The translations under genes and the position numbers were made by a program. DNA of 64,000 nucleotides from Paramacrobiotus metropolitanus (taxonomy: Eukaryota; Tardigrada; Eutardigrada; Parachela; Macrobiotidae): positions 434,001-498,000 of the forward strand of contig NW_026570283.1 of assembly GCF_019649055.1 (NCBI RefSeq). Reading direction: 5' to 3'. Below the pieces are notes generated by a model. That model ran no database searches. It was given only the letters and a program-made list of their open reading frames with translations, and was not told the DNA's origin. Shown piece after piece: positions 5,657 through 54,815 of this stretch (position 1 is the first letter of the stretch; each line of letters opens with the position of its first letter).

Positions 5657-5858
5657 CTATTCGTTAACTAAAACAAGCCGCGGCTGATCCCGCTGATAAG
5701 ACTGGCGCTGCTGCGGGGGATTACTGGGGAAACTGGGTGCGTCCAGCGCGATGAGATTCGTCTCACCCGCATCCACATCCCGCCATCGCTGCGCCTCCAA
5801 AAGAGTGTGTTGGTCATCGGCACGGTGCCGGTTCGGAACAGAATATGCGTGGCCGTTA
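5657..5858 (-). other. alternative last exon of the ZDHHC gene
   Basis: Read on the minus strand, an acceptor ending in CTATAG precedes an open stretch of about 67 codons to a TAG stop. It starts in the same phase (one base completing an AG- codon to Ser) as the other last exon at 6144-6342. Its first residues (SNGHAYSVP) parallel [10 protein letters not shown] of the other exon, and both match the S-x-G-[ND]-G segment found at this point in ZDHHC2/15/20. The tail is Gln/Arg/Pro rich, without recognisable domain. Splicing exon 11 to this exon instead gives a 354-residue protein. Confidence 0.5.
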
Positions 5859-6143: not shown

Positions 6144-9100
6144 TCACGCCAACCTATTGGAATGTCCATTAGCATTCTGGAAAGATCTGAATCTCGGAGG
6201 AACAGGGGCGCTTGTGGTCTCGTTTCGTACATCCAGCGACACATGATGGGAAGGGAACTGGGAAGCAGTCGAGTCAGGGGCCGGAGAAACGTACGCCGAA
6301 TCACGAGAGGACCGCACCGGGTACTCTAAGCCGTTGCCTTTGCTGTAATACAAGTACGCAGTATTATTAATAGGGATAATTCGCATTTTATCCATGCCAT
6401 TAAAGTTACAAAAGAGCATATCCGGTCACACTTCACAACAAAACCGTTACGGATATACCAACCAACACTGTCAACGTCAACAGGAGTACCATCTCAAAAT
6501 TATCCGAATCAGAACATTTTAAAATGGCAAAACATTTAGAGAAAACTGAGACTGAAAATCGATTGTATCTCGCCGGTATTTCTGCAACTACAGCATTCGC
6601 GCATGCGGGAAACTGCCGAAATCTACTTAACCTCAGTTTTCCTGCTCCGAGACAAAATTCGTGGAACAGAATTTATAAGGATATACGTGTACCTAGTAAA
6701 CACCGGGATGAACCACAACAGCCAGTTATCGCCGAAGATCTGCGTGAAATTGTTGTAGTGACCCAAATGAAAGCCATTCTTATCGATACCTCCAGCGAAT
6801 ATAGGCGATCGATAACTTTCTACGGAAAATTGCAACATTTGGAAGTACCCGAGAAATTTTCACATAAGACAGGGCGTAACATTAAAAAATGCAGTAATGA
6901 GTTCAAACAAGGACCAATGTAACCAAAAACACAGAAAATAAGAACAGGTATATGTACATGGATTATATTTCATTCAAAAAATGAGAGACTGTACCGATTG
7001 TACTCCGATTGACCAGCGTCAAGTAGATGTGATAACTGAGAAGTGTTATCTACGAAAACAAATAAAGAAACTCAAACCAGACTGCCGAAAAATGCAGAAG
7101 GCATGTTATTGCTTACCAAACTGATCATAAACATGGCCGACACAAAGAATAAGAATAATATGTGGAATTTGTTTCCGCTTCCGGTCAACTCATCCTAGAA
7201 AATAAGAGTCATCACATTAAGTCACTAAAACTCATTCGCGTGTAAATTATTTTGTAAAATAAAACTGACAAAACAAGCGCCAGCTCATTAGCGCTTTTTT
7301 ACCCGCCAAAATCGGATGAAATATGGAAGATCCGTCAGAGCCGTATATAAGCAGAAGCACACAGCATATCCCAGAAACAGCACGAAGAACTTATAATTAT
7401 CGAAGCCTGTTGAATTCATAACACGAATCCTTAATCCTGTCTGACTGACAAAAGCTATAATATAACAATTCTGGACTTACAGACGCAATTATTCACCCTG
7501 TGAAAATAAAAATCAAGCAATTACATAAAATGACAAGCTTAAAATGCAAGGCGTTTTAGGTAAGGCCTAAGTGTTTGAATCAGCAGACATGGGCGATACA
7601 TCAGATACAATTTAGCAGGAAAGCGAAGACTCACCAGGGACTGCAACAAATAAAAAAAAGTCAGTGAAATACTGAACTTGTTATGCAACAAAAGAGTAAA
7701 AATTAATTACCAGTGATGATCCATTTTTAAAATACACCTGTAATGGACAGGCATGGCATAAGGATTAAGTAGACACCAGAACGTGAACATTTGGTCGTTT
7801 TTACCTCTCACAAACCGAGCAGTGGTGCGAACGATCGGGTTTGATGAGAAAGCATTTCTCGCAGTATCTAACATCTGGAAATAAGACGGCACTACAATGA
7901 TGCTAACGACACTATATTGCCGTTAGTGGAACGACAAAACAGCTCGGGGAGAGCGGACCTTGATTATAGCCTCTGGTGTGCACTGGAAGATTAGTGGCAT
8001 AGGAATTCAAAAGTTTCTTCACCGTTTCATGATCTCGCGCGGTCTGCGCCGAGTCCAGCTCGGCCATTTGTGTAGGTGAGAGATAAAACTACATAAATAG
8101 ACACAATATAGTATTACTGTACATACTGCATAGTACACACAAATGCCATATCCGAATGACTAATATGAGATCCAGAGTGCCAGTAAAATATATGACATAG
8201 ACTGTAATTAGGTATTTGTTTCCAAACTGTAGAAAAAATCGCAAAACTAATAAAACTTATTTTCCCAAATTCCCATGCTTCAAAGAAATGCAACCAAATA
8301 CGGAATACCCAACCATACTGTCTAAAATGCCTATCTCGTTCCATTTTCCTTGCATCCGTTGAAAAATTGCTTTCAATTTAAAAAAAATGACACAGCAAAA
8401 AACTGTACCATCTAATTCTTATCACAGAATATAAATTTCACTTTCCCAAGGCAACGTATGGACAAAAACCCGAAAATATACTTATGGTTAAACCTGCGAA
8501 ACTGGCTTACCCGGGATGGAATGTGGCCTCCATTAGTGAAGATGCACTGATAATACGACCAGGAAAACAGGAAGAAAAATACGTGGAAAAATATTAGATA
8601 AAATGCTACAAAATGAAAAACACACAAAAGATCACAGGAGGCTGAGGAGACAGGTGGTTTTGAAACTATTAAACGTAAGTCATGCTTTCCGAAAGCAATT
8701 CTTACTCTTCTCCGTTGTTGAATGGATTTCTTCTATAATTCAAGAGAAAAATTTGTTATGATCCCGTCTATCATTATAACAATTACATCGTGTAAGTGCA
8801 CTATACGTTACTTATAAGTTATATTAACCACAATTAAAGCAAGAAAAACGAAACTTCAATCGAAAATAAGGAATTATTGAATTATTCATTGGTCACTGCT
8901 GCCCTAACAGCCCAGTTGTGCAAGTTCAGTTTGCAGATGGTTTGCACTTAGCGGCGGTACTTAATTAGAAAAGATATTTTTCTATTTTTTCAAAGTAAAG
9001 CACAATTTTCTAAAGCACAATTTTCTAAAGTTGTAAACTTTTCTAATTTTAAATACCCCGCACTTATGCTTAGTAATAGTGACTTACGAATGCATAGTTC

Positions 9101-9205
9101 ATAAACATAAGCGTAGTAAGCCCATCCGACGACTGCGCTGATAAAAACAACAGGGAACCATTTGGCGATGGCAATGCACAATCGGAGGCACGGATGACGG
9201 AACAT
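6144..9205 (-). CDS. DHHC palmitoyltransferase, ZDHHC2/15/20 type
   Basis: Membrane S-acyltransferase that attaches palmitate to cysteines of Golgi, endosome and plasma-membrane proteins. Twelve exons on the minus strand: 9088-9205, 8511-8641, 7959-8088, 7805-7874, 7711-7737, 7635-7640, 7481-7497, 7303-7406, 7117-7194, 6995-7049, 6693-6819, 6144-6342; 353 codons plus stop, with all phases consistent. The N-terminus ([20 protein letters not shown]) is the first membrane helix typical of this subgroup. Zinc-binding Cys-rich residues [14 protein letters not shown] and the catalytic DHHCPWVNNCV follow, then helices 3 and 4 and the C-terminal DKNGFHLG segment. The DHHC core is spread over exons of 27, 6 and 17 nt. 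The usual Gly after NNCV is Cys here. Two alternative last exons are possible (see 5657-5858). The start is the ATG just before the first helix. Confidence 0.93.
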
Positions 9206-22362: not shown

Positions 22363-22962
22363 TTATAAAGCAGAAGTGTGATTACGCAACACCACATCTG
22401 CAGACAATTCCTTCAGGCGAGGCGCTTTGCACTCCCACAAGCGCAGAATGCGATCGTCTCCAGCCGTGATGGAAAAACGAAACAGCAGTTGACCTTTGTA
22501 ATCGGCAAATTCTTGCATAATGCGCTTGATGCAGCGACGCCACGGCTTCGTCACGATGATCACGGTGTTGCCGGCTTCCAGCAAAGCCCGCAGAACTGTG
22601 ATGCAGTCATCCAAGATGGTCGGGGTAATATCGTGCGTTGTTGGGAATTGGACCGGTCCGTCGCGTTTATAACTAGCTTTGGCGATGACCGGGGCTAAAT
22701 CCACTTTCTGCGGAGTGCGCCATTCACGCTCCGTCATTCCTTCGGCCAGTGCATCGTTGCGGACAAAACAGTAGCGACAGTCGTTCTCACAACCGAGGGC
22801 GGCTGACAGACCATCCACGCACGGTGGGCGGAAGTAGGATTCGTGATCCGGAATAGGCACAGCGGTGCGCTTTGGTTCTTCCAGGGCACACAGTTTGGGA
22901 CAGATTGTTGCTTCGGTAGCGTGCACGGTTTCAATTGTCGTGGGGCGAATAAGCACGGACAT
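22363..22962 (-). CDS. truncated radical-SAM protein, SplB-like (copy 1)
   Basis: Single open exon of 199 codons from the ATG at 22962; the frame is also open further upstream. It has the radical-SAM cluster motif CENDCRYCFVR (C-x3-C-x2-C), which binds a 4Fe-4S cluster and S-adenosylmethionine, preceded by YFRPPCVDGLSAALGC. Strand/helix repeats such as LLEAGNTVIIVTKPWRR and LLFRFSITAGDDRILRLWE follow. This layout matches the bacterial spore-photoproduct-lyase-like (SPL) radical-SAM family. The frame stops soon after LRLWECKAPRLKEL, where family members usually continue for over 100 residues, so the barrel is incomplete. No good donor is seen at the break. Probably a truncated or dead copy of a gene gained from bacteria. 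Confidence 0.7.
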   Translation of the reverse strand: MSVLIRPTTIETVHATEATICPKLCALEEPKRTAVPIPDHESYFRPPCVDGLSAALGCENDCRYCFVRNDALAEGMTEREWRTPQKVDLAPVIAKASYKRDGPVQFPTTHDITPTILDDCITVLRALLEAGNTVIIVTKPWRRCIKRIMQEFADYKGQLLFRFSITAGDDRILRLWECKAPRLKELSADVVLRNHTSAL

Positions 22963-23551
22963 TCTCGGAGGATTTTTGCAGTTTCGAAAACGGACACAAC
23001 GAAGAGATGACCGCACCGATGCACAAAAAGATGGAAAGAAAGAGGGAAAGAAAGAAAGCTCACTGCAGAATCAGAGTGTACCAAATTAACGAACAGTAGT
23101 CACATAACCATCTAAAACATCCTGCATAAGACGGTGGGTCTTATATATAGCGATAGCTGCGGTATATGCGGGGTGGGGTATGGTGACCCTGCTTGTCCGC
23201 TAAACTTCTATCTGGCAATTTTATGTGCCATTACTCACTGAATCTAATCTAGTGTCTAATTTGGGGGCTAGATCCTTTCTTTGCCAATGTCAAATTCTTC
23301 TTGCATAGTGCCTTATGATAAAATATGATATCATTGTGACATAATAATGGCCGACTTAGCCTTGCAGCTGCGACAGCGTTGACATCTGAATAATCATGGT
23401 TATTCAGGACTGACGTAAGTACATACTAATTTATTTTGTCGTCAACTGTCACCTGCAAGATTTAGTCAAAGGAATGGTGTGACAGTGTCAGCATTCCAGG
23501 CTTTTCCAGCTACATATATAATTGTAAAGAAAGAAAATGGATGGAGACATT

Positions 23552-49903: not shown

Positions 49904-52900
49904 ATGGGTGTGCGCTCTAATTCGCCCTTTCGAAAATGGATGCCGCAGTCTGGTCGTCACCCGCGGCGTCGTTCGGTGTCTACTGCATCACGCAAGGAAC
50001 GTCGAGAGTATCAGTATTCCCCGCTCAAAAATGAGGTTAGCGGCAGCAGCGGTTGGCTCCTACTAACAGCATCTCTTCGATAGTAATTCACGCAGCTCTA
50101 TAGAGCATTTGCTGCAGGAATTTGTCGACCCCAGTCCTTCGCAAGCGACGGTAGCGTCACGTTGGCTGTACACGAATGAAGGGAAGGCCTGGGTCACGGC
50201 AAAGCCCCCCGCTGACAAGAAGAGCGTCGTGCAGCAGGTCAATGTGGACGTCAGCACTATGGACACGGAGTCGCTCATGGACAATGATCGAGCGCGTGCC
50301 ACATATTTCAACGACGGACAGCGACCCATTGGTACGTTAGTGGTTTTGGAATAAAGCTTTTGAAAAAATATTTAAATCAACTGTACGTAGATTTCGTTCT
50401 GGTTTATGAAATCAAACGACACCATCTTGAAGCTCTGAATCCGTATCAAATTGATAAGCGTGAACGGTTTCTGCGAGGGGTGGAAGAAACTGGTATGCAA
50501 CTGGAAAAAGTATGTGGCACGTATGTGACCTTTACTAATCAATGCAGTGTATTGGTGCATAACCTAGCAAAATTAATTTTTTGGTATAGATGCATGCAGT
50601 GCAATACTGTGCATGGCTGAGCCAAGGTGTACCCCTATCCACCTTGGCTGAGCCATGCAGCCACCATGAGCCATGTTGGCTCATGATGGATCATGGCTGG
50701 ATATAGCTGCTGTTGAATTTGTTTAGTTACCATATTCACACATTGATTAGACGTTGCTTCAATTTATGACGTTGCATTATGAATTTCCAGATGAAAGCCA
50801 TGCAAAAAGCAGGTCACATATCCACCTTTGTGAAAATCCATTGTCCCTGGGACATACTGCAGGATTGGGCAGAAAAGCTTAGGATCCCGGCTCCGCTACA
50901 AGTGGGTGATGACAGCGGCATGAGGGTCATTGCCCATTGCCATTGTTACGCTTACACTATCCGTAAGGCGTAATGAATATCGGGTTTTAGCCACTTTAAT
51001 AATACTCAGCTAAGAACTAACAAATAACAAGTAAACATGAGCTTATATAACGGCCTAAGCCGGAAATAACAGGACATCCAGGGAAACGACCTAATATCAG
51101 ACAATCACTCATTGTCAGTACATCTGGCTCACAAGGGCATGAGAAAGGCAAAAACATGGACTATGACCATAGGATAAACGCACACATGACCATAGGTACA
51201 TGACCATAGGGAAAAACATATATGACCATAGGTTACATTACTACATGAGTAATCCGGTTATGTAACACCATTTGCACCACTATTATTACTGAAAGCCCAG
51301 TCGGTCATACAGCTGCAATTTCATTAGGAAGCTCCTGGTATAGTGGAAAACTGGTCTCAGAAAGTGTTGCAGTTTCTGAAAATCCCCTCCGATTGGAACA
51401 TAATGGCCCGCGAAGTACCCCACCTGCCTGTACATTATTATACTGCCCAGTTCCGTGCTGATCGGCTACAACAGTAAGTAGGTGGTCAGTGCCATCTGCC
51501 ACGTGCCACTCAGCCAATCAGCACCAACCAACAGGCCATGGGACATTAATGTACAGTTACGTTTTCAAGGACGATCCAACCAAGTTGTTCAGCCGTTCCC
51601 AGCGCAGTTATATCGTCAGCGAGATCCTGCAGACCGTTGTGTATGGGGATGAGCGGAAGGGGCAGATGGGGTTGCCGCGGTTGTTGTCAGAAGGCGTGTT
51701 TCAAGCGGCTTTTCCCTTACACGATGTAAGGTGATTTGGACCAGGTTTCTGTTGCAAAAATGTCACAAGTTTATAGACTTCGATAGATTTACGTCTGTTC
51801 TGATGCCCTCCACAGGGACCGCTAGATGCCGAGCTGACAGCAAGGAGACGAAATGCCCACTCAAATCAGAGGCAAATTTTACGCGATCACTGGGCTGATT
51901 TTAAGTGCTTCTTCCGCTATCAACCCATTGGACACATTCGGAGTTACTTTGGTGAACAGATTACGTTGTACTTCGCGTGGCTTGGTAAGCAAGTGCACGC
52001 TTCGGTAGCTTAACAAATACTAATTACGAGTAAAGTGTTCCTGGAATTACGAACATACGATTTCGCCTGGATGAAAAAATAACATTGCCCTTAAATATAT
52101 ATAAAAGATAAAATGCTGACCGACAAACGGTTAAATATATTAACGTGAATTAATCCAATAAACTATTTTATATCGTTGCTTGCTTTTTGTGGTGCCAGTT
52201 CGACCTCGTGCCCATAACGCACTAGCTGTAGTACATCGGTTGGCAATTTCACGCAGGCGAGATTTGCAACAGTTACATACACATTTTCGTATCTAATTCA
52301 TCATTATTTGTGGAAAGGTTTGTACACGGGCTGGCTGATACCCTTGGCGCTAGTGGGCATTGCTGCCTTCCTTTACGGTATTGTCACTATTCCCGAGGAC
52401 CCCATCGTCCAAGAAGTATGCAACAAAGGTGAACACTACCGCATGTGCCCGGTGTGCGACAATTGTCCATACTGGCAGCTTAAAGAAGCCTGCGGCGGAA
52501 AGAAGATTGGCTACCTTTTCGACAACTACGGGACCTGTGTGCACGCCTTCTTCATCTCACTTTGGTGTAGGTCAAACGCGTCGTGACCTTTGGAGAGTGC
52601 CATTTTCAGCCGTTTTTTATTGAATTTTAGCGGTTATGTTGGTAGAGTTCTGGAAGCGGAAGAACGCTGAGCTGACACACTTTTTCGACTGCGATGACCT
52701 GCAAGAAGAGATCGAGCACCCGCGGGCGGCGTTTACGCGGTTTGCGCCCATGATGAAACGAAATGTGGTCACCGGGCAGTTGGAACCGTTTGTACCGCGA
52801 ACGACATTGATACTGCGCAGGCTAACCAGTTGGATTGCTAGCATATCTTTCGTAAGCCGTTTACTGAATCAACAAAACATTATTTATTCTGGAAACAACC

Positions 52901-54815
52901 GTTGAATTGGAATATTTAGGTCCTACTCATATTTCTGGTGACCTTTGGTGTCATTCTAATACGGACACAATTACGGGCGGAACTTATAAGGAAGTATGGC
53001 TTAAGCAGCCTCCATGCGAAAATTGCCGGACCAGTAGCAACGTTGGTCAATCTGGCGACGATTTTAGCGCTGAATTACGTCTACGTTTATATCGCGGCGA
53101 AATTAACCGAATGGGGTACATTATTGTCAGTTACAGCCGACCTTATCTTTTTGAAATATTATATTCTGATTTTATATTAAACTTTCTTGAAACAGAGATG
53201 TACCGAACACAGCGAGAGCACGAAGAAAGTCTAGCTTGGAAAGCCTATTGGTTCCAGTTCGTAAACGTTTTCGCCCCTATGTTCTATCTGGCTTTTGTCA
53301 AAGGCCGCTTCATCGGCTCACCCGGTCACTATCGCCGCGTGGCCGGGATGATGCTGGAGACTTGCGATATCGGAGGGTGTTTTGCCGAACTGGGAGTACA
53401 GCTGATCATTACGATGTGCGGCAAGCAGATTATCTGCAATATTGCGGAATACGTTTATCCGTAAGTTAATACAGTGCATACGGTATCGAAGAAGTTAGCA
53501 AGCGCTAGGCTGAATTGGGAACAATTTGTTTCAAACAAATTGATTTCTTAGAATGCTTCAACGTACGGTGAAGATCCGCCGCGGCCGCATTCTTTCCACT
53601 ACGGAATTGAATGCCACGTTTCTGGATCAGCAGTACAAGTTGCTGCCGTATATGGGTTTAACTGGCGAATATATGGAAACAGGTTAGGAACCCATTCGCA
53701 GAGTGCATGACCGCAAAATTTAATCTAGCGAATACTGCAGTAATTCAGTTTGGATTTATCGTTCTGTTCGGAGCCGCATTTCCTTTGGGTGCTCTCGTGT
53801 CGCTCTTGAGCAACATATTCGAAATCCGACTTGACGCTCACAAGCTCATTGTCAACTGCCGGCGACCTTTGGCACTGCGAGCCCGGTCGATTGGTATTTG
53901 GTTACATGTACTGCGTTGGATGACGGTTTTATCGGTAATGCATTATCGGTTAAAAGATGGTAGATGGCGCTTGCTGTAGAAAGGGTATTAAATTAAATTT
54001 TTTCTTTAAACAGGTGTGGGTCAATGTAAGCGCTGACTATGGACCTAATGTACTGCTGAATTTCCGCTGGTAATGTGCGATCTTGTTCCAGGCTTTCCTA
54101 ATCGCATTCACCTCGGATACGCTAGCGGAGACTTTGTACGCCATAGAGCATAAGGGCTCCATGGTTGGATACATTAATCACTCACTGGCCATCACGCCGG
54201 TCGGCGTGGGACCTGAGCGATGTCGGTAAGAAAGAACGCACAATGCGTTTTAAAAACATTGACTGTATACATGACCTTTTCGTAGCATGCGCATTATGCG
54301 TCCAGAGTTGAATCGAATTCTGAGATAATCGTAGATAGCTATTTTCTGGTGAATAGTAAAATTAACATGAACCTGTTAAGTTTTGGTGGTTTATACTTTA
54401 TAGATACGAAAGTTTCCGCAATATCCAGGGGGATTTCAATAAATTCTACTACGAACTGACTGTCCTGCGATTATCGTTCGTCCTGATTTACGTGGTGGGG
54501 TCGCATTTCGTTTTGTTACGATATTGTGTATTTTGTAAACGCTTTCTATAGGCTACAGTATATGGAATATGCACTATCATTTCTTACATGATCCCCGACA
54601 TTCCCAAGCATGTTCTTGATGCACGGAAGCGCCGGCGGTTTCTTGCGGATCAAGCACTGCAGAGTACACCGGCAGCGGCAAACGAGGCGTATCAGCGTGT
54701 AAAGGCATCCATTCAGGAGAACCCCATGAGGATTAAACCATTGAAGCATCAGTCCAAATTCAAAATGAAAGCAAAAAACTATTATGATGACAAAGCGCGC
54801 AAAGCACGCCAATAA
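49904..54815 (+). CDS. anoctamin (TMEM16) calcium-activated channel/scramblase
   Basis: Ten-helix membrane protein of the ANO family. Sixteen exons: 49904-50035, 50070-50331, 50391-50509, 50791-50901, 51361-51473, 51557-51725, 51816-51984, 52318-52566, 52631-52851, 52920-53115, 53196-53460, 53552-53682, 53741-53934, 54092-54225, 54404-54494, 54552-54815; 939 codons. Landmarks: cytosolic IDFVLVYEIKR; RSQRSYIVSEILQTVVYG; IRSYFGEQITLYFAWLG before helix 1; the Cys-rich first outer loop MCPVCDNC with LFDNYGT; SLWSVMLVEFWKR; FYLAFVKGRFIGSPGHY; GGCFAELGVQL (calcium-site Glu on helix 6); SNIFEIRLDAHK (helix 8 Glu and Asp); SYMIPDIPK at helix 10. The first junction needs a 34-nt intron; alternatively one extra base lies there. 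Subtype (ANO1-7) not assigned, and channel versus scramblase cannot be told. Confidence 0.93.
50612..50657. repeat. inverted repeat in anoctamin intron 3
   Basis: CATGGCTGAGCCAAGGTG and CACCTTGGCTGAGCCATG form arms of 18 bp with one central mismatch and a 10-nt loop. Further CATG/GGCTCATG palindromes follow to about 50700. Confidence 0.7.
51171..51233. repeat. four copies of ATGACCATAGG in anoctamin intron 4
   Basis: The 11-mer ATGACCATAGG occurs four times in about 60 bp with uneven spacing. It is not a strict tandem array and may be a clustered protein-binding site. Confidence 0.7.

Follow-up and report, generated by a model that had tools for sequence, protein, structure and literature searches.

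A DHHC active site split over three consecutive micro-exons in a predicted palmitoyltransferase gene of the tardigrade Paramacrobiotus metropolitanus

The gene and its joined active site

The window analysed here is a stretch of 64,000 nucleotides from Paramacrobiotus metropolitanus (RefSeq assembly GCF_019649055.1, contig NW_026570283.1, positions 434,001 to 498,000 of the forward strand) with a mean GC content of about 42%. On its minus strand lies a gene whose 13 exons, when joined, give one unbroken frame of 405 amino acids, with the ATG at position 9205 and the stop at position 5657. The exons and one candidate exon are as follows:

9088 to 9205, minus strand: coding exon 1, 118 nt, with the start codon and the first hydrophobic helix
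8706 to 8732, minus strand: candidate extra micro-exon, 27 nt, located after the first helix, with AG/GT borders and frame-neutral; the open frame does not need it
8511 to 8605, minus strand: coding exon 2, 95 nt, open frame
7959 to 8088, minus strand: coding exon 3, 130 nt, open frame
7805 to 7874, minus strand: coding exon 4, 70 nt, encoding the first half of the cysteine-rich domain
7711 to 7737, minus strand: micro-exon 5, 27 nt, supplying the third base of an Arg codon, then CILKMDHH and bases one and two of the codon for the catalytic Cys
7635 to 7640, minus strand: micro-exon 6, 6 nt, completing the Cys codon with its third base, then Pro and bases one and two of the Trp codon
7481 to 7497, minus strand: micro-exon 7, 17 nt, completing the Trp codon with its third base, then VNNCV and one base of the codon that follows
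7303 to 7406, minus strand: coding exon 8, 104 nt, open frame
7117 to 7194, minus strand: coding exon 9, 78 nt, open frame
6995 to 7049, minus strand: coding exon 10, 55 nt, open frame
6693 to 6819, minus strand: coding exon 11, 127 nt, open frame
6154 to 6342, minus strand: coding exon 12, 189 nt, open frame
5657 to 5858, minus strand: coding exon 13, 202 nt, including the stop codon

Two other features of the window were recorded. An open frame on the minus strand (22363-23067) carries a radical SAM domain (PF04055; its 32.9 bits exceed the cut-off), and an anoctamin gene, pieces of which match Anoctamin-1 and -6, occupies positions of about 52200-53500 on the plus strand and the flanks. A partial look at the anoctamin gene revealed no clear missing micro-exon. 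In the genome, neither SL1 RNA nor the Col_cuticle_N domain gave a match, the controls being silent in both cases.

A phmmer search identified human DHHC20 (PDB 6bml) as a colinear match of the 405-residue protein (E 7.3e-92, residues 8-286), and the entry 6bms, which is listed as Palmitoyltransferase, matches about as well. The cysteine-rich domain and the DHHC, NRSTIES and NGF stretches of human DHHC20 are all aligned with the Paramacrobiotus protein. The comparison with human DHHC20 was made at the level of the protein; in the Paramacrobiotus gene, the active-site segment is spread over exons of 27, 6 and 17 nt. The matches to ZDHHC5 (E 1.3e-20) and ZDHHC9 (E 1.5e-18) are weaker. Since the match to DHHC20 is far better than these two, in a comparison of classes with solved structures only, the gene was assigned to the class of DHHC20, which we take to be named ZDHHC2/15/20; the listing itself names DHHC20. 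The gene product is a predicted palmitoyltransferase of this class, and the gene is the sole intact member of the class that was found in the genome (533 contigs, 169,799,020 bases). Directly after the NNCV motif, the Paramacrobiotus protein has a cysteine (NNCVC), whereas human DHHC20 has a glycine (NNCVG), and the junction between exons 7 and 8 (7481|7406) is for this reason slightly less certain than the others. When Pfam was searched exon by exon, the gene was left without a match above the cut-off of the family. Thus, it may be taken as a warning that gene models in the P. metropolitanus genome may lose DHHC active sites. With 13 exons in 405 codons, the gene is also dense, given the mean of about six exons per gene that was reported for two other tardigrades (PMC5531438).

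Micro-exons were defined as exons of at most 30 nt with GT-AG introns on both sides. The 27-nt (7737-7711), the 6-nt (7640-7635) and the 17-nt exon (7497-7481) are of this kind; their AG/GT borders are exact and the flanking introns have lengths of 67, 70, 137 and 74 nt. When joined, the three exons encode the catalytic DHHC stretch of 16 residues. The gene is a clean case because the codon of the catalytic residue is split by one intron and the codon of the next conserved Trp by another, six bases on. A preliminary description of the locus had named these three exons, and its coordinates and lengths turned out to be exact. It had also claimed that the invariant motif is restored by their joining only. 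To address this claim, splice chains were enumerated from the fixed donor of exon 4 to the donor of exon 8, allowing no more than four GT-AG introns with a minimum length of 40 nt. DHHCPW is encoded by 9 of the 780 open chains, and all nine use the 27- and the 6-nt exons, in agreement with the claim. Moreover, only the chain through the 27-, 6- and 17-nt exons continues via NNCV to FDNYKFF without insertion or loss. Exons 5 and 7 are 213 nt apart, and this stretch contains a single copy of the 10-base string AG-YCCNTG-GT, which could restore Cys-Pro-Trp; the string was present in 10 of 20,000 dinucleotide shuffles. As far as the sequence can tell, the split active-site arrangement is confirmed as real and well supported.

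The lengths of the 27- and the 6-nt exon are multiples of three, and therefore skipping either of them keeps the frame. The computed products have 396 amino acids without the 27-nt exon, 403 without the 6-nt exon (reading DHHWVNNCV) and 394 without both exons (33 nt), and all of them have lost the catalytic Cys. By contrast, the four combinations that omit the 17-nt exon all cause a frameshift with a stop after residue 140-151. Retention of any one of the four flanking introns likewise stops the frame within the core, after residue 138, 147, 149 or 162. Thus, the earlier statement that skipping any of the three exons would frameshift or kill the enzyme is correct with respect to the active site, which is lost without the 27- or the 6-nt exon, whereas the frameshift arises from the 17-nt exon only.

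The stretch 8732-8706 is probably a further micro-exon upstream. Human DHHC20 is longer by 12 residues after the first helix in the alignment, and inclusion of the stretch increases the phmmer score to human DHHC20 from 312 to 330 bits. The global score rises from 164 to 178; this intron offers 10 other candidate exons, and one of them also reaches 178.

Constitutive joining or regulated skipping

With a probability of roughly 0.85, we favour the reading that the only intact ZDHHC2/15/20-class gene found in the genome has had its active site cut by introns and that the resulting micro-exons are joined constitutively via intron definition. The active-site segment would have been cut up by introns that accumulated through intron gain, leaving exons of 27, 6 and 17 nt. 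These exons would be recognised by intron definition across the short introns of 67, 70, 137 and 74 nt and would be present together in every productive transcript. Failures would then have different outcomes: skipping of the 27- or the 6-nt exon would yield an in-frame, nearly full-length protein without the catalytic Cys, and skipping of the 17-nt exon or retention of an intron would lead to an early stop. The gene offers a test of how the spliceosome copes with several micro-exons in a row in a transcript whose product seems to be indispensable.

The splice sites were ranked with a small leave-one-out matrix built from 24 introns of the DHHC family, which were chosen to have GT-AG borders throughout; the window gene contributed 12 of them, and the other 12 came from C4 and six further loci. 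Among the 24 acceptors, that of the 27-nt exon ranks 16, that of the 6-nt exon 6, that of the 17-nt exon 1 and that of exon 8 19. As for the 24 donors, that of exon 4 ranks 19, that of the 27-nt exon 9, that of the 6-nt exon 11 and that of the 17-nt exon 5. The strengths are thus mixed: among the eight sites that border the micro-exons, three rank 16-19, and the best acceptors belong to the two smallest exons. Furthermore, a genome search for the eMIC domain (SRRM_C, PF15230) gave no matches at E-values up to 10, although such a search may overlook a domain that is short and split. The eMIC-dependent exons of flies were reported to have short introns and extremely weak 3' splice sites (PMC8797185). 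The short introns are common to both systems, but the acceptors of the 6- and the 17-nt exon are unlike the extremely weak sites of the fly exons; that of the 27-nt exon, at rank 16, might still be of the fly type. In Caenorhabditis elegans, micro-exons with very short introns were found to be independent of PRP-40, which was ascribed to intron definition (PMC8378409). Taken together, constitutive joining by intron definition is favoured because the introns are short, the splice sites are mixed and partly strong, the 6- and 17-nt exons do not resemble the eMIC type and an eMIC domain was not found. As a background for micro-exons in this genome, Prp8 was sampled and its PROCN domain lies in long exons. 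There are two PROCN loci, C48:264016-265115 on the minus strand and C48:427814-429334 on the plus strand, both with long exons, which possibly represent two Prp8 copies.

The preliminary description had suggested that splicing at this site could act as an on/off switch. If so, the 6- and/or the 27-nt exon would be a frame-neutral cassette whose skipping, depending on tissue or state, would give a stable, nearly full-length enzyme without the Cys that is perhaps dominant-negative. The in-frame Cys-less products of 403, 396 and 394 amino acids, which result from the omission of 6, 27 or 33 nt, are compatible with such a switch, and so is the weakness of some sites near the 27-nt exon, which are 19th and 16th of 24. 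It has also been reported that 283 of 411 micro-exons in the exon-microexon-exon arrangement are alternatively spliced in Drosophila (PMC8042270). However, the adjoining 17-nt exon is not frame-neutral, the flanking introns are short, the 6-nt exon has a good acceptor (6th of 24, next to the 1st-ranking acceptor of the 17-nt exon) and the eMIC search of the genome, in which a short, split domain can escape detection, was negative. The analysis gave no evidence for a switch, which appears unlikely even though the acceptor of the 27-nt exon ranks 16th and the donor of exon 4 and the acceptor of exon 8 both rank 19th.

The DHHC gene family and a broken duplicate

In the genome, 13 loci with a DHHC cysteine-rich domain were examined, which correspond to ten gene types when the broken copy described below is dropped and three tandem copies on C61 are counted as one. 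The list may be incomplete, as five weak Pfam matches were left out (C33, C30, C14, C34 and C146; at most 19.1 bits), and the exon borders of the family were read by eye, assuming GT-AG introns. In six of the ten gene types, an intron is located in or directly before the catalytic Cys codon. It lies just before the codon in C20 and C40 (phase 0), after the first base in C3:2174k, C3:2356k and C142 (phase 1) and after the second base in the window gene (phase 2). In C24, an intron interrupts the next codon (Pro), and in C4 one directly follows Trp; the cores of C28 and C61 are without introns. Core exons of at most 27 nt are present in four of the ten gene types, namely C20 (17 nt), C40 (17 nt), C3:2356k (16 nt) and the window gene (27/6/17 nt). 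The three tandem DHHC genes at C61:553887-558383 are very similar and have uninterrupted cores, and two of them show stops or a frame change in the Pfam search. Searches of the genome with splice-donor patterns gave nine matches, of which six are in DHHC genes or the broken copy; the patterns missed the known case C20 owing to its codon choice. C9:370900, C3:2345004 and C8:2319022 were rejected as DHHC genes because they look like chance, a simple scan having detected no motif of the cysteine-rich domain in 3 kb.

Why introns lie at the catalytic Cys codon in six of ten DHHC gene types is a question raised by these data. When introns were placed at random and genes were counted, at least six of ten had an intron at the Cys codon in 1 of 200,000 trials and at any codon in 26 of 200,000, with shared descent being ignored. 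When each shared position entered the count a single time, introns occupied every one of the three slots of the Cys codon in 876 of 200,000 trials and those of some codon in 18,664 of 200,000. Both the stretch and the codon for this test were chosen after looking. The latter values indicate that shared descent may explain much of the excess at the Cys codon. It is a very improbable idea that introns have repeatedly been placed at the Cys codon in this lineage and that the small exons let splicing make Cys-less palmitoyltransferases of almost full length, the inclusion of the exons being tuned jointly in several DHHC genes, by tissue or dehydration, as a palmitoylation switch.

A broken duplicate of the window gene is present on contig C421 (24 kb), at C421:11000-15500, and is 84-85% identical in two blocks. 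Within this stretch, nothing aligns with the first two exons or with the beginning of exon 3, and the copy lacks exons 7-10. There is also a small insertion in its 27-nt exon, and its 6-nt exon no longer has an acceptor. Apart from these lesions, the alignment of the two runs through exons 4 to 6 together with the introns, from which we infer that the micro-exon layout is older than the duplication and no accident of the assembly. Selection was assessed with 7 of the 13 exons (part of exon 3 and exons 4, 5, 6, 11, 12 and 13), comprising 669 sites. Among the 70 exon differences between the gene and the copy, 32 are synonymous, while random single changes would be synonymous in 22% of cases (binomial P 9e-6). 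Transition bias, which raises the share of synonymous changes, does not enter into this test. Third positions differ more often (37 of 222) than first and second positions (33 of 447; P 4e-4). The excess of synonymous and third-position differences indicates that the frame has been under selection in at least one copy, for which the intact gene would be the natural candidate.

This excess also bears on the possibility that the gene itself is decaying, no longer makes an enzyme and carries the micro-exons as remnants. The broken copy elsewhere in the genome and the Gly-to-Cys change after NNCV relative to human DHHC20 would fit such a decay, and the exons of the two copies are barely more alike than the introns (599 of 669 versus 821 of 947 sites), meaning that both diverge almost equally. 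However, all 13 exons are open and separated by GT-AG introns, the synonymous and third-position differences are in excess and the similarity to human DHHC20 is strong and colinear, which makes decay very unlikely. An assembly or base-calling error that splits one larger exon is highly implausible: polishing errors are possible should this be the published long-read assembly (PMC8277472), but the copy on another contig aligns via exons 4 to 6 and their introns with about 85% identity and paralogues have introns at the same codon.

Comparison with known micro-exons

A literature search for micro-exons in DHHC palmitoyltransferases, judged partly by titles and the openings of abstracts, did not uncover such an instance or the family pattern, and a search for tardigrade microexons and alternative splicing found nothing. 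The gene is an extreme yet not unprecedented case, as micro-exons of this kind are known. The view that 6 nt is near the lower limit for splicing, put forward in the preliminary description, is dated. An exon of 6 nt was the smallest constitutive exon known until 2015, when a constitutive exon of 1 nt was reported for the Arabidopsis APC11 gene (PMC4674806), and the human MPC1 gene has a constitutive 4-bp exon (PMC9929638). These two genes resemble the DHHC gene in having very small exons, which are constitutive there, but they are cases of single micro-exons. The MPC1 micro-exon has long flanking introns and was explained by exon definition (PMC9929638), whereas the introns of the DHHC gene are short.

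Three micro-exons in a row across an active site had also been called very unusual. The RPS24 gene provides a precedent for the row, with three consecutive micro-exons of 3, 18 and 22 bp (PMC12686416). However, the RPS24 micro-exons are alternatively spliced and lie outside an enzyme active site, and the position across an active site thus remains without this precedent. Peptidase M1 of plants and algae has adjacent exons of 5 and 12 nt, for which gradual intronisation was described (PMC11096116, PMC8831610). Like the exons of the DHHC gene, they are neighbouring micro-exons inside a conserved domain. They belong to another enzyme in another kingdom, there are two of them rather than three, and the cited passages state no split catalytic codon. 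The Peptidase M1 exons have RNA-seq support and were missed by de novo annotation (PMC11096116, PMC8831610).
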